Positions 6,994 to 54,110 of a stretch of DNA of 64,000 nucleotides are shown one piece after another (within the stretch, counting starts at the first letter, position 1; each line of letters starts with the position of its first letter). Location: the NCBI RefSeq assembly GCF_900475675.1, contig NZ_LS483403.1, positions 310,001 to 374,000 on the forward strand. The letters run 5' to 3'. Both the position numbers and the translations under genes were made by a program. This DNA is from Streptococcus lutetiensis. Its GTDB lineage: Bacteria; Bacillota; Bacilli; Lactobacillales; Streptococcaceae. The notes under the pieces were generated by a model that ran no database searches, had not been told where the DNA came from, and worked only from the letters and a program-made list of their open reading frames with translations.

Positions 6994-7725
6994 ATGGATA
7001 TCAAAAATAAGAATGTTTTTGTAACTGGGTCAAGCCGCGGAATTGGTTTAGCTATTGCCCACCGTTTTGCAAGCCTTGGGGCTAATGTAGTGCTTAACGG
7101 TCGTTCAGAAATTTCAGTAGAATTGCTTGATAGCTTTAAAGATTATCAAGTGAAAGTTGCTGCCATTTCTGGTGATGTGTCACAATTTGATGATGCTAAA
7201 CGCATGGTTGATGAAGCAATCGCGAAACTTGGTTCTGTTGATATTTTGGTTAACAATGCTGGTATCACACATGATAAACTGATGTTGAAAATGACTGAAG
7301 CTGATTTCGAATCAGTGCTTAAAGTGAATTTGACAGGTGCTTTCAACATGACACAATCAGTCTTGAAACCGATGACGAGAGCGCGTCAGGGTGCTATTAT
7401 TAATTTATCTAGCGTTGTTGGTTTGACAGGAAATGTAGGTCAAGCAAACTATGCAGCTTCAAAAGCTGGTTTGATTGGTTTTACAAAATCAGTTGCGCGT
7501 GAAGTTGCCGCACGTGGTGTTCGAGTCAATGCTATTGCTCCTGGATTTATCGAGTCAGATATGACAGATGTGATTCCCGAAAAAATGCAAGAAGCTATTT
7601 TAGCAGGTATTCCGATGAAACGTATCGGTAAAGCTGAAGAAGTGGCAACAGTAGCAAGCTTCTTAGCTGAGCAAGAATACTTGACTGGACAAGTCATTGC
7701 AATTGATGGTGGTATGGCAATGTAA
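6994..7725 (+). CDS. fabG: 3-oxoacyl-ACP reductase FabG
   Basis: 243 aa short-chain dehydrogenase. Reduces beta-ketoacyl-ACP with NADPH. TGSSRGIGLAIA (dinucleotide loop, residues 11-22), NNAGITHD, and the catalytic Ser...Tyr-x3-Lys (NLSSVVG...NYAASKAG) are visible. Start ATG 6994 preceded by AATAGGAGA at the end of fabD. The stop codon lies inside an inverted repeat that precedes fabF. Confidence 0.95.
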   Translation: MDIKNKNVFVTGSSRGIGLAIAHRFASLGANVVLNGRSEISVELLDSFKDYQVKVAAISGDVSQFDDAKRMVDEAIAKLGSVDILVNNAGITHDKLMLKMTEADFESVLKVNLTGAFNMTQSVLKPMTRARQGAIINLSSVVGLTGNVGQANYAASKAGLIGFTKSVAREVAARGVRVNAIAPGFIESDMTDVIPEKMQEAILAGIPMKRIGKAEEVATVASFLAEQEYLTGQVIAIDGGMAM

Positions 7726-7754
7726 ACTATTGTTTGCTTTGCTGTAATAGTTTA
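7723..7754 (+). other. Inverted repeat between fabG and fabF
   Basis: TAAACTATT (7723-7731, includes the fabG stop) and AATAGTTTA (7746-7754), 14-nt loop. The arms resemble FabT half-sites (AGTTT) but spacing is not that of the 17-bp box. It may be an RNA hairpin or a weak regulatory site. Confidence 0.35.
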
Positions 7755-7791
7755 AAATTAGAAGTATAATTTCTCTTAAAAGGAGACAAAA

Positions 7792-9024
7792 ATGACATTA
7801 AATAGAGTTGTCGTAACAGGTTACGGTTTAACATCCCCTATCGGAAATACACCAGAAGAATTCTGGAACAATCTTCATGATGGTAAAATTGGTATCGGAC
7901 CAATTACTAAATTTGATAATTCTGAAATCCCAGTTCATAATGCTGGGGAAATCCATGATTTTCCTTTTGATAAATATTTTGTTCGTAAAGATAAAAATCG
8001 CATGGATCAATACTCACTTTATGCGATTTATGCGACTTTAGAAGCTCTTGAAAATGCAAAACTTGATATGGATACAGTTGATCGTGACCGTACTGGTGTC
8101 ATCGTATCATCAGGTATTGGTGGTTTGCAAGAAATGCAAGAACAAATCATTCGTATGCACGAAAAAGGTATCAAACGTATTCAACCAATGTTTATCCCTA
8201 AAGCTTTGTCAAACATGGCTGCTGGTAACATTGCTCTTCGTATTGGTGCGCGTGGTGTATGTAAATCAATCACAACTGCTTGTGCCTCATCTAACGATGC
8301 TATCGGTGAAGCTTTCCGTGAAATCAAATTCGGCTACCATGATGTAATTCTTGCTGGTGGTGCTGAATCTACTATTAATGAAATTGGTATCGGTGGTTTC
8401 AATGCTTTGACTGCCCTTGCTACAACAGAAGACCCAGCTCGCTCTGCTATTCCATTTGATAAAGATCGTAATGGTTTTGTTATGGGGGAAGGTGCGGCTG
8501 TGCTTGTCCTTGAAAGTCTTGAACATGCTCAAAAACGTGGTGCAACAATCCTTGCTGAAGTTGTTGGTTATGGTAGCAACTGTGATGCTTACCACCAAAC
8601 AACACCAACTCCTGATGGCTCAGGTGCAGCAAAAGCTATTGAATTGGCAATCAAAGAAGCTGGTATTTCACCAGAAGATGTGGACTATGTCAACGCACAT
8701 GGTACATCAACTCAAGCTAATGAAAAAGGTGAAAGTAAAGCTATCGTAACTGTCCTTGGTAAAGATGTTCCAGTATCTTCAACAAAATCATTCACTGGAC
8801 ACCTTCTTGGTGCTGCAGGTGCTGTTGAAGCTGTCGCAACTATCGAAGCAATTCGCCACAACTACATTCCAATGACTGCTGGTACTCGTGAATTGTCAGA
8901 AGATATCGAAGCAAATGTAGTTTACGGACAAGGTCAAGAAGCAGAATTAGAATATGCCATTTCAAATACATTCGGATTTGGCGGACACAATGCTGTTCTA
9001 GCATTTAAACGTTGGGAGGCTTAA
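7792..9024 (+). CDS. fabF: Beta-ketoacyl-ACP synthase II FabF
   Basis: 410 aa. Elongation condensing enzyme. Catalytic Cys164 in TTACASSNDAIG, the first His in NAHGTSTQANEKGE and the second in KSFTGHLLGAAGAVEA give the Cys-His-His set of chain-elongating synthases; C-terminus SNTFGFGGHNAVLAF. AAGGAG precedes the ATG. Only two bases separate it from accB. It is the only elongation synthase in the locus (no FabB), consistent with the FabM route to unsaturation. Confidence 0.95.
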   Translation: MTLNRVVVTGYGLTSPIGNTPEEFWNNLHDGKIGIGPITKFDNSEIPVHNAGEIHDFPFDKYFVRKDKNRMDQYSLYAIYATLEALENAKLDMDTVDRDRTGVIVSSGIGGLQEMQEQIIRMHEKGIKRIQPMFIPKALSNMAAGNIALRIGARGVCKSITTACASSNDAIGEAFREIKFGYHDVILAGGAESTINEIGIGGFNALTALATTEDPARSAIPFDKDRNGFVMGEGAAVLVLESLEHAQKRGATILAEVVGYGSNCDAYHQTTPTPDGSGAAKAIELAIKEAGISPEDVDYVNAHGTSTQANEKGESKAIVTVLGKDVPVSSTKSFTGHLLGAAGAVEAVATIEAIRHNYIPMTAGTRELSEDIEANVVYGQGQEAELEYAISNTFGFGGHNAVLAFKRWEA

Positions 9025-17953: not shown

Positions 17954-17993
17954 TCTTGTTCTTCCTCCTTATGATTATTTTTCGTTGAAACAA

Positions 17994-18034
17994 AAAAGAA
18001 TAATCTCCTTTCGGACAAGTCCGACAATTCTTTT
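17994..18034 (-). other. Leader hairpin of the man operon
   Basis: On the minus strand AAAAGAAT and ATTCTTTT close a stem that holds an inner TCGGA-CTTG-TCCGA hairpin, followed by TTGTTT. It sits between the promoter and manL and resembles a terminator/attenuator. Confidence 0.4.
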
Positions 18035-18064
18035 CCGTTCCAAGGAAATTTTAAGAACGATATT

Positions 18065-18093
18065 ATTGTAAAACGTTTTCACAAAAAATGCAA
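18065..18093 (-). promoter_or_regulatory. man operon promoter with cre-like site
   Basis: Minus strand TTGCAT (18088-18093), 17-bp spacer, TACAAT (18065-18070). The spacer holds TGTGAAAACGTTTTACA (18067-18083), 12 of 14 bases of an ideal CcpA box. The remaining part of the 320-bp gap up to 18273 is AT-rich with no gene; TGAAAAACTTC-type pairing around 18240-18270 may end the neighbouring HAD transcript. Confidence 0.6.
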
Positions 18094-28468: not shown

Positions 28469-28540
28469 GGAGAGGTCGCATAGTGGCCGAGTGCGCGTGT
28501 AGTCCAATTGGATTCGGGGGTTCAAATCCCCTCCTCTCCT
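28469..28540 (+). pseudogene. tRNA-like sequence lacking an anticodon arm
   Basis: 72 nt. A perfect 7-bp acceptor stem GGAGAGG/CCTCTCC (28469-28475, 28533-28539), a T arm GGGGG-TTCAAAT-CCCCT (28516-28532) and a 4-bp D-type stem GCAT/GTGC (28478-28481, 28491-28494) around AGTGGCCGA are present. The 21 nt in between contain the palindrome TCCAATTGGA and cannot form a 5-bp stem with a 7-nt loop. The ends and GGCCGAGTG recall a serine tRNA. It may be a decayed tRNA, a tRNA mimic, or an old integration scar. CCA is not encoded. A terminator follows. Confidence 0.6.
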
Positions 28541-28561: not shown

Positions 28562-28610
28562 ATGCCCTTTACTTTATAAATAATGATTAAAAAATTAGGG
28601 TATTTTTTAT
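28562..28610 (+). terminator. Terminator after the tRNA-like sequence
   Basis: ATGCCCT (28562-28568) with AGGGTAT (28597-28603), 28-nt AT-rich loop, followed by a T run. Confidence 0.55.
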
Positions 28611-28622
28611 TTTTAATTTTTT

Positions 28623-28631
28623 TGCTATAAT
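28623..28631 (+). promoter_or_regulatory. Extended -10 promoter of the GGDEF/exopolysaccharide operon
   Basis: TGCTATAAT (TATAAT 28626-28631). Leaves a leader of about 155 nt before the cyclase gene, holding a 31-codon ORF and a GGTAGT/ACTACC hairpin. I find no c-di-GMP riboswitch core in it. Confidence 0.55.
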
Positions 28632-28678: not shown

Positions 28679-28774
28679 ATGGGAAAAACTCTTACCAGAG
28701 TTAAGAAATCTTTAAAAATTAGTAACTACAGTTTGATTGTTTGGGAGCAAGCTGCTGGTAGTATGACTACCTAG
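28679..28774 (+). CDS. Possible 31-aa leader peptide upstream of the GGDEF gene
   Basis: ATG 28679 to TAG 28774 on the same strand. The product begins MGKTLTRVKKSLKISNY, a basic half, and ends in a less charged half with one Trp, so it could be an amphipathic helix. The only ribosome-site candidate is a GGGG about 10 nt upstream. It ends 17 nt before the cyclase ATG. A leader peptide, a small membrane-active or regulatory peptide, and chance are all possible; I do not recognise it. Confidence 0.3.
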   Translation: MGKTLTRVKKSLKISNYSLIVWEQAAGSMTT

Positions 28775-28791
28775 AAAATGGTAAGGCTGAA

Positions 28792-29823
28792 ATGATTTTA
28801 GGAAAAGTAAGTGATTTTTTAATCAAGCACCAAAGATTGTTAACGTACTCGAGTATTTTTGCTGCGTTAATGTTATTAACGCACTTAGTGTATGATGCTT
28901 GGATTGATCATGATAATCCTACCATTTTGGTAACCTTGGTCGTGATACTCGTCCTCTGTACCGTAGCTTCTTACCTTAATCGAAGACAACATATATTATC
29001 CCACTTTATTTTAGAGAGTGCGAAGCTTATTAATGTCTATGCTGTGGACTTAGATTATCGTTTTATTGCGGTCAATAAGAACGATATTCGGCTTATGGAA
29101 GAAGTTTTTCATTTCACTCCCAAAATTGGTGATTTTCCAATGAATTATCTTGATAGTGAAGAGGCTGCGCGTTTAAAAGTGAGTGTTGATCGTGCGAAGA
29201 AGGGTGAAACGTTTACATTTATAGATACTATTAAGGCAGGTGATAAAACGCTTTACTGGCAAAACATGTATTCTCCCATTTATAACAATCGCCAAAAGGT
29301 GATTGGCGTTTTTTGTTGTGTTCTTGATGTTACAGAGCAGAGAGTTCATGAACTTGAAATACAGAAGATGGCATACGAAGATGTTTTAACACGGGTTCAT
29401 AATCGACGATATATTGAGCTTGCTTTTGAGGAATGTCTGATGCGTAAAGAAGAAAGGATTACGGTTATTATATCTGATTTGGATAAATTCAAAGAAGCCA
29501 ATGATACCTTTGGACATGCTACGGGAGATAAAATTCTTATTGAGTTTGGTGATATTTTAACGAAGATAATGCCTGAAAGTGCTGTAATAGCAAGGTTAGG
29601 TGGAGATGAATTTGCCATTTTACTCCCTGGAGTTTCTGAAAATCAAGCTGAATTTTTAATAAAACTTGTTCAAGCAGAAATGACTCTCAAAGATGCGGGG
29701 GTTACAGCATCTTTAGGTGTTTATACGGACTCTTATCAATCACATAAAAACTTCGTTGATTTTTGTGCAATAGCTGATAAGAAAATGTACGAAAATAAAA
29801 GTCAGAAAGGAGAACGTCGATGA
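28792..29823 (+). CDS. Membrane PAS-GGDEF diguanylate cyclase
   Basis: 343 aa. Expected to make c-di-GMP from two GTP. Two membrane segments (about residues 15-32 and 42-62), a PAS-type sensor domain (about 75-185, VYAVDLDYRFIAVNK... to DVTEQR) and a C-terminal GGDEF domain starting at DVLTRVHNRR. Metal/GTP residues are in place: SDLDKFKEANDTFGHATGD (cut here) and the active-site GGDEF at residues 270-274. The RxxD inhibitory site expected five residues earlier is absent (PESA there), so product inhibition by that route is unlikely. Overlaps the next gene by four bases. First gene of a four-gene operon whose third product has a c-di-GMP-binding PilZ domain. Confidence 0.92.
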   Translation: MILGKVSDFLIKHQRLLTYSSIFAALMLLTHLVYDAWIDHDNPTILVTLVVILVLCTVASYLNRRQHILSHFILESAKLINVYAVDLDYRFIAVNKNDIRLMEEVFHFTPKIGDFPMNYLDSEEAARLKVSVDRAKKGETFTFIDTIKAGDKTLYWQNMYSPIYNNRQKVIGVFCCVLDVTEQRVHELEIQKMAYEDVLTRVHNRRYIELAFEECLMRKEERITVIISDLDKFKEANDTFGHATGDKILIEFGDILTKIMPESAVIARLGGDEFAILLPGVSENQAEFLIKLVQAEMTLKDAGVTASLGVYTDSYQSHKNFVDFCAIADKKMYENKSQKGERR

Positions 29824-30887
29824 TGTTTCAAGATGTTGTTATTGTCATTCCTGCCTATGAACCTGATGACCGTTTGTTGGAACTTTTGAAAAATATTCGG
29901 GATAAGGAAAATCAAATGTTTGACATTATTTTAGTCGATGACGGTAGTGGAGCTGATTTTGCATCGTTATTTGCAATAGCGCAGAGTAACTATGCTTGTC
30001 ACTTGCAAAAACACGCTGAGAATAAAGGAAAAGGTCGTGCTTTAAAAACGGCTTTTTCATATATTTTGGATAATTTTCCTAATGCCAAAGGAATTGTGAC
30101 GATTGATTCTGATGGTCAACATACCTACGAAGACATGATGAAATGTTTGGCTGAATTTTTGCAACATCCTGATAGTTTGGTGCTGGGTGTTAGAACATTT
30201 GAAAAATCTGTTCCTTTACGTAGTAAATTGGGAAATTTATTGACAAGAGACGTCTTGGGGGCTATGACAGGTATGAACGTTTCTGATACGCAAACAGGGC
30301 TTCGTGTGATTCCTATGTCATGGCTACCAAAACTCTTAACCGTGGAGGGTGAACGGTATGAATTTGAGATGAATATGTTACTTGAGGCAAAAGAGGACAA
30401 TATTTCAATTTGTGAAGTTGGCATTGCAACGATTTATTTAGAGGAAAATCAGTCATCACATTTTGATGTGATTCGTGACTCGATTAGAATTTACAAGGTT
30501 TTCTTCAAGTACATTTTTTCATCATTGTTTTCCTTCTTGGTTGATATTGTTGCTTTTACGATTTTAATTTCTTTGTTTAATGGATTGAGTTTTAGTGCGG
30601 TGACGTTAGCTTCGGTTTTAGCGCGTGCGATATCATCTGTTGTTAATTTCACCTTGAATCATAAAGTGGTTTTTAAACAAGGTCAATCAAATAGTGCGAT
30701 AAAATACTTCACTTTGGTGGTAGTACAGATTGTTTTGTCAAGTTTATTGGTAACAGTTCTAGGAAATACCTTGACGATGCTGCCAATTTCATTGGTGAAG
30801 ATTTTAGTTGATGGTACACTTTTCTTTGTCAGTTATTTTGTGCAAAAACATTTGATTTTTAGTGGAGGCGAGAATGAAGACCAGTAA
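29820..30887 (+). CDS. GT2 glycosyltransferase fused to GtrA-type membrane domain
   Basis: 355 aa. Residues 1-225 form a GT-A family 2 transferase of the polyprenyl-phosphate type (IPAYEPDD, ILVDDGSG, TIDSDGQHTYED metal site, MSDTQTGLRVIP-like acceptor loop VSDTQTGLR). Residues about 230-350 hold four membrane segments of the GtrA family (SLFSFLVDIVAFTILIS..., NFTLNHKVVF). Together this suggests transfer of a sugar to undecaprenyl phosphate and its flipping across the membrane, for use by an outward-facing transferase. AAGGAGA sits before ATG 29820. Its stop overlaps the start of the BcsA-like gene by 14 bases. Confidence 0.88.
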   Translation: MMFQDVVIVIPAYEPDDRLLELLKNIRDKENQMFDIILVDDGSGADFASLFAIAQSNYACHLQKHAENKGKGRALKTAFSYILDNFPNAKGIVTIDSDGQHTYEDMMKCLAEFLQHPDSLVLGVRTFEKSVPLRSKLGNLLTRDVLGAMTGMNVSDTQTGLRVIPMSWLPKLLTVEGERYEFEMNMLLEAKEDNISICEVGIATIYLEENQSSHFDVIRDSIRIYKVFFKYIFSSLFSFLVDIVAFTILISLFNGLSFSAVTLASVLARAISSVVNFTLNHKVVFKQGQSNSAIKYFTLVVVQIVLSSLLVTVLGNTLTMLPISLVKILVDGTLFFVSYFVQKHLIFSGGENEDQ

Positions 30888-33099
30888 GAGGGTACTCTAT
30901 TTCGTTGCATTTGTAACGACTGCCTTTTATTTAACTTGGCGTTTGGTGGCGACTATTCCGTGGCATGATTCATGGTTTGCGCTAATCTTTGGGATTTTAT
31001 TGTGGGGAAGTGAGGTAGTTTCAGCCATTACAGGTTACATTCTCATTTGGAATAAGCAAAAGGACTTTGAGCTTGAAAAGCCTGAGATCGCTAAGGAGCG
31101 TTACCCAGATGTGGATGTTTTGATTGCAACGCATAATGAGGATCCAGAGTTGCTTTATAAGACGATTAATGCCTGCACTTTTATGGAATATCCTGATAAG
31201 TCTAAGGTGCATATCTACGTCTGTGATGATACCAATCGTCTAGAAGTTTCCAAATTGGCTGATGAGCTTGGTGTTGGTTATTTTGGTTTGGCGGATAATA
31301 AAGATGCCAAATCAGGAAACTACAATAATGCTTTACATCAGACGTCATCACCTTTGGTGGCGACATTTGATGCTGATATGATTCCTTATCGTAAATTCCT
31401 GTTGGAGACTGTGCCCTATTTTGTTGAACAAGTTGAGGCTTATGAAAATGGTGACGATTATGATAAGTCAAAAGTTGGTTTGATTCAAACGCCACAAAGT
31501 TTTTACAATGCTGATATTTTCCAATTTAACTTGTTTTCAGAATCAACCTTACCAAACGAACAAGATATCTTTTCCAAAGAAATTAATATTTTCAATAATT
31601 CGCACGGTGCAGCGGTTTATACGGGATCTAATACGGTTATTTTCCGCAAGGCGATTGAAGATGTTGGTGGTTTTCCGACAGATACCATTACGGAGGATTT
31701 CGAGCTAGGTGTTCGGATGAATGTGGCTGGCTATGTAAATTATTCGACGAAAAGTCCAATGGCTAGTGGGTTAACGCCAACAGATTTGAAGAGTGTCATC
31801 AAACAGCGCGTGCGCTGGGGACGTGGCGTTATTCGCAGTAGCTACAATATGAATATCTTCTTTAATCCCAAATTGACAAAGGGGCAAAGAATTGTTTATA
31901 TTAATAGCTATCTTTATTGGTGGTCTTTCTTTAGACGGTTGTTGTATATCTTGGCGCCGATTTTATATACGGTTTTCCATGTGCGTGTGGTGGTGTCAAA
32001 TATCTGGCTACTGTTCCTATTCTGGTTGCCAAGTTACGCCTTGACACGCTTGTCAATGCGAGAAGTCTCAAAACAATACCGAACACAGGTTTGGGGAGAA
32101 ATTGTGGAAACGATTTTTGCTCCGTATTTGTTTATTCCCATGATGTTGGAGTCCTTTGGCATTAGCGAGAAAAAATTTAAGGTGACACGTAAGGGAAATG
32201 ATACGTCGTGGACGTTGTACCTTTATGCGCTTCCTTATCTTGTTTTGTGGGGATTAGCCGTTTATGGTTTGGTGATTTTTAACTATGGAAAATTTGGTTC
32301 AGAGCTTTTTTATGGAAGTATTATCAGTTTTTGGTTAATTTATCATATTATCAATTTGACCTTTGCGATTTTCTGTGCGTTTGGTCGTCCGATTTATCGC
32401 TCAAGTGAGCGTTTTACTGTTGATGAAGCTATGGTTGTTGAGGTTGATGATGATTCTTACCAAGTGAGAGTCTGTGATATTTCAGAAACGGGGATTTCAT
32501 TCTATACGAATTTACCATTGTATTTGCCGAAAGAAAAAGAACTGACGCTTAATTTGCAATCACGTGATTATCATGCGAGGGTAAAAGGTCATGTTATTCG
32601 TGTTTTTGCGATTGATAATGGCTGGCGCTACGGCGTTCAATTTTCAGAAGTTCCTGAAGCTGATAAGCGTGAATTTTATCAGTACATTTATGACCGCGTT
32701 AATCACAATCTTCCGAAGGAAAAAGACCCTTGGATGACAACATGGGATGATTTATTTGAGAACTTTAGTCAACGTTTCCAAAGTAATGAACGTCCTATTT
32801 CAGCCTATGACCAAGTAGCTTTTCCGAAAGTCCGAGTCAATGAAGAGGTTCAAGTTGCTGGAAAAAAACGCCAGCTTAGAAAGACAGATTATTATTACAT
32901 GACATTTTCTGGAAAATTGACCAATCCTAAAAAAGAACCGAATGTCGCATTTACCTACAAAGATTTACCAATTCAGTTGACTTTTGTGTCCTATGATATT
33001 GATAGAGGCGAATCGCTTTATCAAGTTACCAATTTAGCGGATTTGGATAGCTTACCTGCTTTTAAAGCCTTAGCCAATGAGTGGAGAGGGAGAGCATGA
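30874..33099 (+). CDS. BcsA-like processive glycosyltransferase with PilZ domain
   Basis: 741 aa from ATG 30874 (GGAGG five bases upstream; the GTG at 30862 overlaps that site). Two N-terminal membrane segments, then a GT2 core with every processive-synthase motif: D118-D119, D166-A-D168, T273-E-D275 and Q311-R-V-R314-W315. Four or more membrane segments follow (about 350-480), then a PilZ domain with RSSER at 509-513 and DISETG at 535-540, the c-di-GMP-binding pattern RxxxR...DxSxxG. So chain synthesis coupled to export should be switched on by c-di-GMP from the cyclase two genes upstream. The polymer is unknown: cellulose-like glucan, mixed-linkage glucan or an aminosugar polymer are all possible. 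Confidence 0.92.
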   Translation: MKTSKRVLYFVAFVTTAFYLTWRLVATIPWHDSWFALIFGILLWGSEVVSAITGYILIWNKQKDFELEKPEIAKERYPDVDVLIATHNEDPELLYKTINACTFMEYPDKSKVHIYVCDDTNRLEVSKLADELGVGYFGLADNKDAKSGNYNNALHQTSSPLVATFDADMIPYRKFLLETVPYFVEQVEAYENGDDYDKSKVGLIQTPQSFYNADIFQFNLFSESTLPNEQDIFSKEINIFNNSHGAAVYTGSNTVIFRKAIEDVGGFPTDTITEDFELGVRMNVAGYVNYSTKSPMASGLTPTDLKSVIKQRVRWGRGVIRSSYNMNIFFNPKLTKGQRIVYINSYLYWWSFFRRLLYILAPILYTVFHVRVVVSNIWLLFLFWLPSYALTRLSMREVSKQYRTQVWGEIVETIFAPYLFIPMMLESFGISEKKFKVTRKGNDTSWTLYLYALPYLVLWGLAVYGLVIFNYGKFGSELFYGSIISFWLIYHIINLTFAIFCAFGRPIYRSSERFTVDEAMVVEVDDDSYQVRVCDISETGISFYTNLPLYLPKEKELTLNLQSRDYHARVKGHVIRVFAIDNGWRYGVQFSEVPEADKREFYQYIYDRVNHNLPKEKDPWMTTWDDLFENFSQRFQSNERPISAYDQVAFPKVRVNEEVQVAGKKRQLRKTDYYYMTFSGKLTNPKKEPNVAFTYKDLPIQLTFVSYDIDRGESLYQVTNLADLDSLPAFKALANEWRGRA

Positions 33100-34934
33100 T
33101 TAGTATTGCTAGATTACTGTTGTTCTTTGTAATTACTATAGGGTATGATGCTTTTTTCCGTAATACTGTGAAGATGAATCGTCGTTTGACATGGGTGTTT
33201 ACATTTTCGGTCATTACATTGGCATTGTACCTTGGTAGTTTGTTAGGCTTTATGTTACAGACTGTGTATGCCATTTCTGTTTTAGGCTGTCTTTTGAGTC
33301 TTTATTATCTTTGGGCGGTATGGAAAAAGAAATATCGCTTTAGGAGACTTGATTATATTGCGCTTGGAATGATGGCTTATTTGCTTTTGTTTGGAATAAC
33401 GCTCTGGTATTCACCGCTTTTACATTATGATAATTTTACGCATTGGGCAACGATTGTAAAATTTTTCCATATCAATAATGCTTTGCCAACACAGCAGGAT
33501 ACGATTATTAGTTATTATACCTATCCTGTTGGAAGTTCACTTTTCATTTATTTTTTCACGACTATCGTAGGCTTTTCAGAAGGCAGTATGTTGATCGGGC
33601 AATTCTTCTTGATTGCTTCATCTCTTTATGCCATGTTTGCAGCACTTCGTGATGATCGACGTGTCTTAATGGTTAGCATGATTTTTGCTTCGTTTGCTGT
33701 TTTTAATACGTTCAACATTGCTATTCGATTAAATAATTTGCTGGTTGATTTTCTGCTTCCAGCCTTGGCTTTGGCAGCCATAGCAGGTTGTTTTGCCTAT
33801 CGTAATCGTTTCTGGTTTTTGTCGCTAAATACGGCGGTAATTCTTGGATTATTAAGTATCGTCAAAGTAAGTGGACTTTTCTTTGTCGCTCTCGTTTTAG
33901 TAGCTTATGTGGTTTGTATTGTGCGTTTACTTGTTCGTAAAAGAGCACGTTTAAAGGCACTAGTGCTGCTCATAATGACCTTACTAGTCAGCTTTCTTCC
34001 TTTTGTTATTTGGCAAAAGCATGTGACGGATAACTTTCCAAATGCCTCAAGTGCCAAGCATGCGGTGTCCATGTCAGAACTTGGTCAGGTATTGACGGGA
34101 AATCTGTCAGGCGACCCACAAAAAATTATCACTCTTTTTGTCAAATCGGTGTTTACGTTTGACAGTTTGGCAAGCAATGGAATTTTGATAATCAATCTGA
34201 TTATGCTGATTGCCTTTGTTGTGATTGGCATTCGTTTGAAATATAAGAAATTTGTCTTGTTGACATGGGGATTTGTTGATATTTCGATTGTGACTTACTA
34301 TATTGGTATTTTGCTCATGTATCTGACAGCAATGCCGACTGATGAAGCGTTAGAATTAGCAGGATTTGAGCGCTATGCTTCGAGCATCGTTATCTTTGCT
34401 TTTGGTTGTTTGACCATGTCTTTAGCATGGGTAATGGACAAGTGTCTGTATGAAAAAATCATTAGTAAACGTAATGCTAGGTCTTACAAGAGCTTATTTA
34501 ATAAACGCTTGTACCAATACGCAAGCCTTGTTTTGACAGTTTATGCCATTGGAATGTTCTTGTCAGAAAATAATAGCATTGTTTACAATAACAATCAGGA
34601 AACAAACGAGGTCGCAAAAGAAATTCATCAGCTTACTGGAAGTCAGAGTGATTCGTCAACGGATAGAATTTTGGTTGTAACAGCAGACAAGGAGAATGTA
34701 GATAGTTATTTTGTCCAATATACTAGTAGTTATTACCTCTGGAATGAAAATGTCGATACTAGAGATGATTTCAATTTAACAGACGATGACTCTATTGCAC
34801 TCTTAAAAACATATGACGAAGTCTTGATTTTAGATGACCATTATACGTTTAATGCCTTGACGAAAAAGCTTTTCGGTCGGACATATTCCCCAGGATTGTA
34901 TAAAGTATCAGATATTCTTGCTGGAAAAGGGTAA
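33096..34934 (+). CDS. GT-C-like polytopic membrane protein, probable glycosyltransferase
   Basis: 612 aa from ATG 33096, which overlaps the previous stop (ATGA). Ten or more membrane segments to about residue 490, then an extracytoplasmic C-terminal domain. The first outer loop has YDNFTHW (D112, H116), placed like the catalytic acidic residue of GT-C enzymes that use lipid-linked sugars. No close family assignment from sequence alone. In context it may use the lipid-linked sugar made and flipped by the GT2-GtrA protein to decorate the PilZ-controlled polymer; a polymerase or acyl-transfer role cannot be excluded. Last gene of the operon. Confidence 0.75.
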   Translation: MISIARLLLFFVITIGYDAFFRNTVKMNRRLTWVFTFSVITLALYLGSLLGFMLQTVYAISVLGCLLSLYYLWAVWKKKYRFRRLDYIALGMMAYLLLFGITLWYSPLLHYDNFTHWATIVKFFHINNALPTQQDTIISYYTYPVGSSLFIYFFTTIVGFSEGSMLIGQFFLIASSLYAMFAALRDDRRVLMVSMIFASFAVFNTFNIAIRLNNLLVDFLLPALALAAIAGCFAYRNRFWFLSLNTAVILGLLSIVKVSGLFFVALVLVAYVVCIVRLLVRKRARLKALVLLIMTLLVSFLPFVIWQKHVTDNFPNASSAKHAVSMSELGQVLTGNLSGDPQKIITLFVKSVFTFDSLASNGILIINLIMLIAFVVIGIRLKYKKFVLLTWGFVDISIVTYYIGILLMYLTAMPTDEALELAGFERYASSIVIFAFGCLTMSLAWVMDKCLYEKIISKRNARSYKSLFNKRLYQYASLVLTVYAIGMFLSENNSIVYNNNQETNEVAKEIHQLTGSQSDSSTDRILVVTADKENVDSYFVQYTSSYYLWNENVDTRDDFNLTDDDSIALLKTYDEVLILDDHYTFNALTKKLFGRTYSPGLYKVSDILAGKG

Positions 34935-34946
34935 GTTTTCTAGCTT

Positions 34947-34967
34947 TATCAAGCATAAGTCTTGATA
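34947..34967 (+). other. Hairpin after the exopolysaccharide operon
   Basis: TATCAAG/CTTGATA with a 7-nt loop followed by TTTC; weak terminator candidate. Confidence 0.4.
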
Positions 34968-34987
34968 TTTCAAATAAAATATGCTAC

Positions 34988-34993
34988 TATAAT
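34988..34993 (+). promoter_or_regulatory. -10 box of the rimP operon
   Basis: TATAAT at 34988-34993, with TTGATA at 34962-34967 at a long 20-bp spacing. Confidence 0.45.
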
Positions 34994-34999
34994 AGAAAA

Positions 35000-35192
35000 T
35001 ATGTAGAAGGAGGCGGAGTTTGTGACTTCGCCTCTTGTGGTGCTTAAATCTCATTTTAGCCTAAAAGGCTAGTGATTACACGAGATTAAGAGCAAAGTTC
35101 TACGATGAGACGCTACAAATCTACTTTCTAGAAGTGAATGAGCGTAGTGAACTTTCTATTTTTGATTTTGAAAGATAAAGGAGGGGATTCTT
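35000..35192 (+). ncRNA. Structured leader RNA of rimP-nusA-infB
   Basis: No gene. Three successive foldable parts: GAGGCGGAGT/ACTTCGCCTC (35010-35019, 35025-35034); AATCTC...GAGATT enclosing AGCC/GGCT (about 35046-35094); and AAGTTC-TACG...CGTA-GAACTT enclosing ACTT/AAGT (about 35096-35158). The Shine-Dalgarno sequence follows at 35178-35184. Looks like a regulatory leader of the operon; ligand or protein unknown. Confidence 0.5.
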
Positions 35193-53916: not shown

Positions 53917-54110
53917 TAAAGAGAGAAATCCTCATGGTGTTTCTTAGCGAGTCCGAGGTGGTGGAAGTCGGATGAAACTGAAATGAGTTGCTGGCGCTTT
54001 CACTTAGCTAGGCTAAGTTAAAATCAAATAAATGAAGTAATAAAATAGGGTGGAACCGCGTTTTAACGCCCCTTATGAGGTATCATATAGGTGTGTTGGC
54101 GGTTTTTTAT
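53917..54110 (+). promoter_or_regulatory. T-box riboswitch leader of glyQS
   Basis: T-box core AGGGTGGAACCGCG at 54047-54060. AACCGC (54054-54059) can pair with GCGGTT (54099-54104), which is followed by a T run, giving the terminator alternative. Stem I lies at about 53920-54010 and contains GGC at 53993-53995, a possible glycine specifier. The region from nagA to glyQ (53831-54177) holds no gene. Confidence 0.85.

Follow-up and report, generated by a model that had tools for sequence, protein, structure and literature searches.

The known c-di-GMP (cyclic dimeric GMP) polysaccharide module of streptococci is placed by a 2023 review, citing Liu et al. 2020, at the trmB-rimP site in several streptococcal clades (PMC10333796). 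In Streptococcus gallolyticus a hemicellulose locus was listed as early as 2014 (PMC4051162), and a 2025 account describes gallo_0364-0367 as a putative hemicellulose locus in 40 strains, a few of them with inactivated copies (PMC12445087). The same account reports similar loci in S. infantarius, S. lutetiensis, S. equinus, S. salivarius and S. ruminicola, and describes the locus as missing from subsp. pasteurianus and as partly broken in the subsp. macedonicus type strain. We analyzed a window of 64,000 nucleotides from S. lutetiensis (NZ_LS483403.1, positions 310,001 to 374,000), in which four overlapping genes (28792-34934, forward strand) form an intact operon between trmB and rimP, as established by identification of TrmB and RimP and by comparison of synteny. 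It is close to certain that this operon is the known module. As described in print, the gallo_0364-0367 locus and the streptococcal module credited to Liu et al. 2020 likewise comprise a cyclase, a Dpm1-GtrA hybrid, a cellulose-synthase-like glycosyltransferase and a membrane protein with multiple transmembrane segments, at trmB-rimP and in the bovis group among others. Compared with the syntenic S. equinus copy, the window allele is only 76% identical in nucleotides and is closest instead to the copies of S. rubneri, genome G113 and S. vestibularis. An earlier note on this DNA had implied novelty; the view that the operon is undescribed in Streptococcus is rejected by the published descriptions for S. 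gallolyticus (PMC12445087, PMC4051162) and for several streptococcal clades (PMC10333796). To what those three papers give, the present analysis adds a predicted GT-C fold for the fourth protein, one genus in which receptor motifs and cyclase are absent together, and details of horizontal exchange.

Given the computed domains, motifs, predicted folds, gene order, gene counts and horizontal exchange, the best explanation, and in our judgment a probable one, is a c-di-GMP-controlled synthase that works with a side-sugar pair to make a branched surface polymer. The PAS-GGDEF protein would sense a signal and make c-di-GMP, which would bind the PilZ domain of the BcsA-fold synthase and open its gating loop, and the synthase would use a UDP-sugar to extrude a beta-linked polymer. 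The GT2-GtrA protein would load a second sugar onto undecaprenyl phosphate, its GtrA part moving the sugar outward, and outside the cell the GT-C protein would attach this sugar to the polymer as a side group. A more detailed version is put forward tentatively: a minimal circuit, with a cyclase lacking the product-inhibition site, one receptor and no dedicated phosphodiesterase found, would drive synthesis of a branched exopolysaccharide that receives its side sugars outside the cell from the GT2-GtrA/GT-C pair, and the whole unit would have passed between streptococcal groups and, in one lineage, come to lie behind a truncated fruK-like sugar-kinase gene, where another promoter could have taken over.

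Family scans of all four proteins, which the earlier note had proposed as a check, agreed with the anatomy it had claimed, and motifs and folds confirmed the domains; its choice of Streptococcus as the genus also stood. The first gene (28792..29823, +) encodes a PAS-GGDEF protein of 343 residues, a probable diguanylate cyclase in which the GGDEF active-site motif is intact and the RxxD I-site is missing. Liu et al. 2020 are said to have found cyclase activity in a streptococcal protein. The second gene (29820..30887, +) encodes a GT2-GtrA fusion of 355 residues, a probable polyprenyl-phosphate sugar synthase with a GtrA membrane domain. The third (30862..33099, +) encodes a BcsA-like GT2 synthase with PilZ, 745 residues from a GTG codon with a probable ATG start at 30874, and the fourth (33081..34934, +) a large membrane protein of 617 residues from GTG (probable ATG start, 33096), which is predicted to be a glycosyltransferase of GT-C fold. 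The overlaps are consistent with co-transcription of the four genes.

The host genome, a single contig of 1,793,521 bases, gave one GGDEF match, one PilZ match and no match to EAL or to HD_5 (HD-GYP), no search having been made for other c-di-GMP hydrolases. The operon would constitute a one-producer, one-receptor c-di-GMP circuit, its single cyclase being matched by a single PilZ receptor and neither an EAL nor an HD_5 enzyme having been found. A survey of Streptococcus genomes, also suggested in the earlier note, detected PilZ in 11 of 284 and GGDEF in 11 of 197 (10 above the cut-off). All 11 PilZ-bearing streptococci had a GGDEF match, that of genome G058 lying in a gene with an internal stop. 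Among the 13 streptococcal genomes in which all or part of the module is present, EAL was found in 3, near the module in G252 and G078 and elsewhere in G147. The module is a rare case of c-di-GMP signaling in streptococci and perhaps among the smallest, which would make its entire path from signal to polymer testable with a few deletions.

Other c-di-GMP genes and cyclase variants were also observed. G147 (L012-L014, L119) has further GGDEF matches elsewhere, two of which share one open frame of 1118 codons with its EAL match. Adjoining the module of G078 (L023, 5139-9695) are a cyclase, two EAL proteins, a 166-residue protein without a family and a second GT2 synthase, a cluster that resembles the Lactobacillus acidophilus gts layout. 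A repeated 77-base piece lies near the cyclase/GT2 junction of G113 (L016, about 7716-7868), and an ILAIF repeat is extended in the N-terminal part of the S. vestibularis cyclase (L017, 928-1992).

The synthase contains all of the expected motifs, namely D,D,D,QxxRW, the gating loop and the PilZ motifs RxxxR and [D/N]xSxxG. It matched Escherichia coli BcsA with an E value of 1e-67, and fold comparison placed the BcsA fold over residues 3-635. The predicted model has a second small beta domain after PilZ, at about residues 655-722 (32824-33027), for which a scan of residues 621-745 gave no Pfam match. Judged by length, this domain is probably absent from the shorter synthases (about 640-665 residues) of one family.

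To place the synthase in its wider distribution, 395 genomes of the order, sampled evenly from a larger group, were surveyed for relatives at an E value of 1e-100 or better. The synthase was encoded in 34 of them. Motifs were read in 39 rows, consisting of these 34 genomes and L015, L020, L023, L044 and L045, and GGDEF was searched in the 34 genomes and in the 197 streptococci. Two genomes of one genus, G604 and G414, lacked GGDEF and lacked both RxxxR and [D/N]xSxxG, with DD, DAD, TED, QRTRW and the gating loop kept. The [D/N]xSxxG motif was found in 31 of the 34 genomes, the third absence being in G531, whose frame ends there; the synthase frame of G313 ends soon after the motifs. Neighboring genes were checked by tblastn (E value 1e-5, within the fetched stretch) in 20 of 30 fetched loci from outside the streptococci; for L109-L118 the reading was confined to the synthase, and the L105 stretch begins just before the synthase. 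A relative of gene 4 was found in 17 of the 20 loci and gene 2 in 13, while 9 loci have a cyclase and 7 have an EAL gene.

Several findings weigh against c-di-GMP control or against the proposed branching. The Glu that locks the gate in BcsA is T307 in the window synthase, with Asp next to it; over the 39 rows this position is E in 2 and T in 22, and the following residue is Asp in 37. The Romboutsia ilealis synthase RiGT2 is described as having RxxxR and NxSxxG, yet its isolated PilZ domain bound no c-di-GMP and its activity was independent of c-di-GMP (PMC10374906). Because RiGT2, with the same PilZ motifs and the gate Thr, showed neither binding nor stimulation, such motifs alone do not prove c-di-GMP control. 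Both GGDEF and RxxxR are present in 32 of the 34 synthase genomes, a share that stands against GGDEF counts covering these 34 and the 197 streptococci only. Since G604 and G414 belong to one genus, the loss of their PilZ motifs is probably a single evolutionary event. Finally, gene 4 is missing near the synthase in 3 of the 20 non-streptococcal loci and gene 2 in 7.

One alternative is that PilZ is structural, that the synthase is not switched by c-di-GMP, and that the cyclase acts elsewhere or via transcription. RiGT2, whose activity needed its PilZ domain (PMC10374906), behaved in this way, and the missing gate-locking Glu fits as well. We nevertheless regard this alternative as unlikely, since the PilZ motifs and GGDEF are jointly absent in G604 and G414, in which the catalytic motifs are kept, and since the host genome has no other PilZ protein. 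Being probably a single event, and with GGDEF counts that cover the 34 synthase genomes and the 197 streptococci, the paired absence is suggestive of receptor use and is not proof; it is evidence from nature, though from one case, that the receptor is in real use. Binding of c-di-GMP to the PilZ domain and gating of the window synthase by it are inferred.

An equally improbable alternative has the synthase producing cellulose without branches, or else a plain beta-glucan, and gives genes 2 and 4 a part in export or in another glycan. The published names "cellulose-like" and "hemicellulose" agree with such a product, as do the BcsA fold and the match to E. coli BcsA. However, the synthase scored 340.1 bits against NCBIfam TIGR03030 (cellulose synthase), for which the curated cut-off is 699.1, and the BcsA stretch FFCGS reads VYTGS. 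No bcsB was found among the four operon genes with Pfam and NCBIfam, the rest of the genome not having been searched for it. The recurrence of genes 2 and 4 near the synthase across the order also speaks against a role apart from its product. The least likely alternative assigns genes 2 and 4 to a wall polymer, either teichoic acid or rhamnan, which they would glycosylate as other GtrA-type systems do, with no connection to what the synthase makes; their folds and families fit a lipid-linked-sugar transferase with any acceptor, but both genes tightly overlap the synthase gene and recur beside it.

The branched-polymer explanation draws on the two remaining proteins. The nearest solved chains for the GT2-GtrA protein were those of ArnC (E value 1.2e-4). 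Profile search with gene 4 gave no credible solved relative, the best being a 14-3-3 protein at an E value of 0.68, and comparison of its predicted structure gave a GT-C fold with ArnT as the best match, in support of the guess in the earlier note. The operon accordingly holds a GT2 donor synthase, a GtrA domain and a transferase of predicted GT-C fold, the parts of a lipid-linked side-chain system. Given this predicted fold, gene 4 and the GT2-GtrA protein may add side sugars to the polymer, and the prediction gives the fourth gene a testable role. The gene 4 match is 617 codons long in the window and G037 and 651-652 codons in S. equinus, S. rubneri, S. vestibularis, S. vicugnae, G113 and G211, a gap of 34 codons, in frame, near the 3' end; a repeat as the cause of this difference was not supported.

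The window nusA is 96-97% identical to that of S. equinus (G209), and on this basis the host is a bovis/equinus-group streptococcus. A segment at 28751..35048 (+) is common to the S. rubneri, S. vestibularis and G113 copies, with the same end points in all three and 91-97% nucleotide identity in pieces. Identity over this segment was 95.9 and 94.7% to S. rubneri (L015), with nusA at 73.7%; 95.2 and 94.1% to S. vestibularis (L017), with nusA at 82.1%; and 91.2, 97.0 and 95.3% to G113 (L016), with nusA at 83.4%. The S. equinus copy, which is also at trmB-rimP, showed 75.8% identity to the window module, and G211, at the same site, showed 91.6% over flank and module, with nusA at 92.4%. Because module identity is high where nusA identity is low (S. 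rubneri, S. vestibularis) and the reverse holds for S. equinus, these sequence comparisons indicate that the module has been exchanged horizontally between streptococci. The GT2-GtrA and nusA trees, single-gene DNA trees of 11 rows, conflict; two long rows (G058, G078) meet in the former, and the latter has one long row (G186). In approximately unbiased tests, with groups named after the trees were seen, the nusA grouping was rejected for GT2-GtrA (p 0.003) and two module groupings were rejected for nusA (p 0.0005 and 5e-6).

The three copies outside trmB-rimP form one clade (support 97/98); its union with the window copy is less well supported (84/86) and falls within a clade that also holds G211 and G138 (100/99). 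This nesting in a well-supported clade speaks for transfer out of the bovis group but is no proof of it. In S. rubneri the module is preceded by a DeoR-type regulator gene, for which no specific family reaches its cut-off, and by a PfkB-family gene truncated to 79 codons; an ISL3-type transposase lies upstream, and we read the regulator and kinase genes as fruR and fruK. A change of promoter at this insertion site is a guess. The S. rubneri upstream piece recurs in G113 together with part of the regulator, and G113 has in addition a chimeric open reading frame (Epimerase_2 and DeoRC) upstream; S. vestibularis shares about 32 bases of the piece.

Decay of the module was seen in other genomes. 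In G138 the cyclase is in pieces over two frames, the synthase match stops at residue 349, and nothing but the end of gene 4 is left; at trmB-rimP, G147 retains the cyclase alone; in G058 the cyclase and synthase are in pieces; and in G252 an IS3-family transposase lies within the synthase gene. Partial loss has already been published for macedonicus and some gallolyticus strains (PMC12445087, PMC4051162).

The trmB-rimP site lies at a serine tRNA, although in the window this tRNA is a remnant: alignment identified a tRNA-Ser(GGA) without its anticodon arm between trmB and the operon (28469..28540, +), the sole near-full-length match to this tRNA in the genome, and ARAGORN found no tRNA in the window. 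ARAGORN found tRNA-Ser(gga) intact beside trmB in L018, L021 and L022, and degraded forms were aligned in L019, L020 and L025. A possible, weak trmB terminator (28562..28609, +; GCCCT...AGGG followed by a T-run) was read by eye; it is absent from the terminator-scan sites, and the RNA fold of 28565-28616 was unsupportive (z 1.13). A possible extended -10 element, TGCTATAAT, upstream of the operon (28623..28631, +) was also read by eye and is not listed by the consensus scan. Just within the transferred segment, at its 3' end, lies a strong hairpin (35008..35036, +), the fold of 35003-35052 giving -20.9 kcal/mol with z -4.62. No c-di-GMP riboswitch was found in the window with Rfam at the gathering threshold; the sole Rfam matches were the small RNAs SSRC34 and SpR19, at 17954-18081 (-) and 53937-54068 (+).

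Compared with known systems, the window synthase shares with BcsA the catalytic motifs, gating loop, PilZ motifs and fold, and differs in the score below the TIGR03030 cut-off, VYTGS for FFCGS, T307 for Glu, the extra C-terminal beta domain and an operon of four genes without bcsB. RiGT2, a mixed-linkage glucan synthase, is likewise a Gram-positive PilZ synthase described as needing no BcsB, with the gating loop, RxxxR, [D/N]xSxxG and gate Thr; it differs in that c-di-GMP had no effect on it, and the main text of that paper does not use the term GtrA (PMC10374906). ArnC/ArnT and GtrA-type lipid-linked sugar systems also pair a GT2 donor synthase with a GT-C transferase, whereas in the window GT2 and GtrA are fused and sequence identity is low. 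The L. acidophilus gts operon, as described, also has a single cyclase near a BcsA-like GT2 protein and lacks the I-site, but its receptor is a degenerate EAL protein, a family with no match in the window genome. In the Listeria Pss system, c-di-GMP similarly controls an exopolysaccharide made by a glycosyltransferase (PssC), with the effector PssE described as encoded by a separate gene, whereas the four-gene window operon has PilZ fused to the synthase. The earlier note took Pss as the nearest described analogue; because the streptococcal locus itself has already been described, gallo_0364-0367 is the nearer one.

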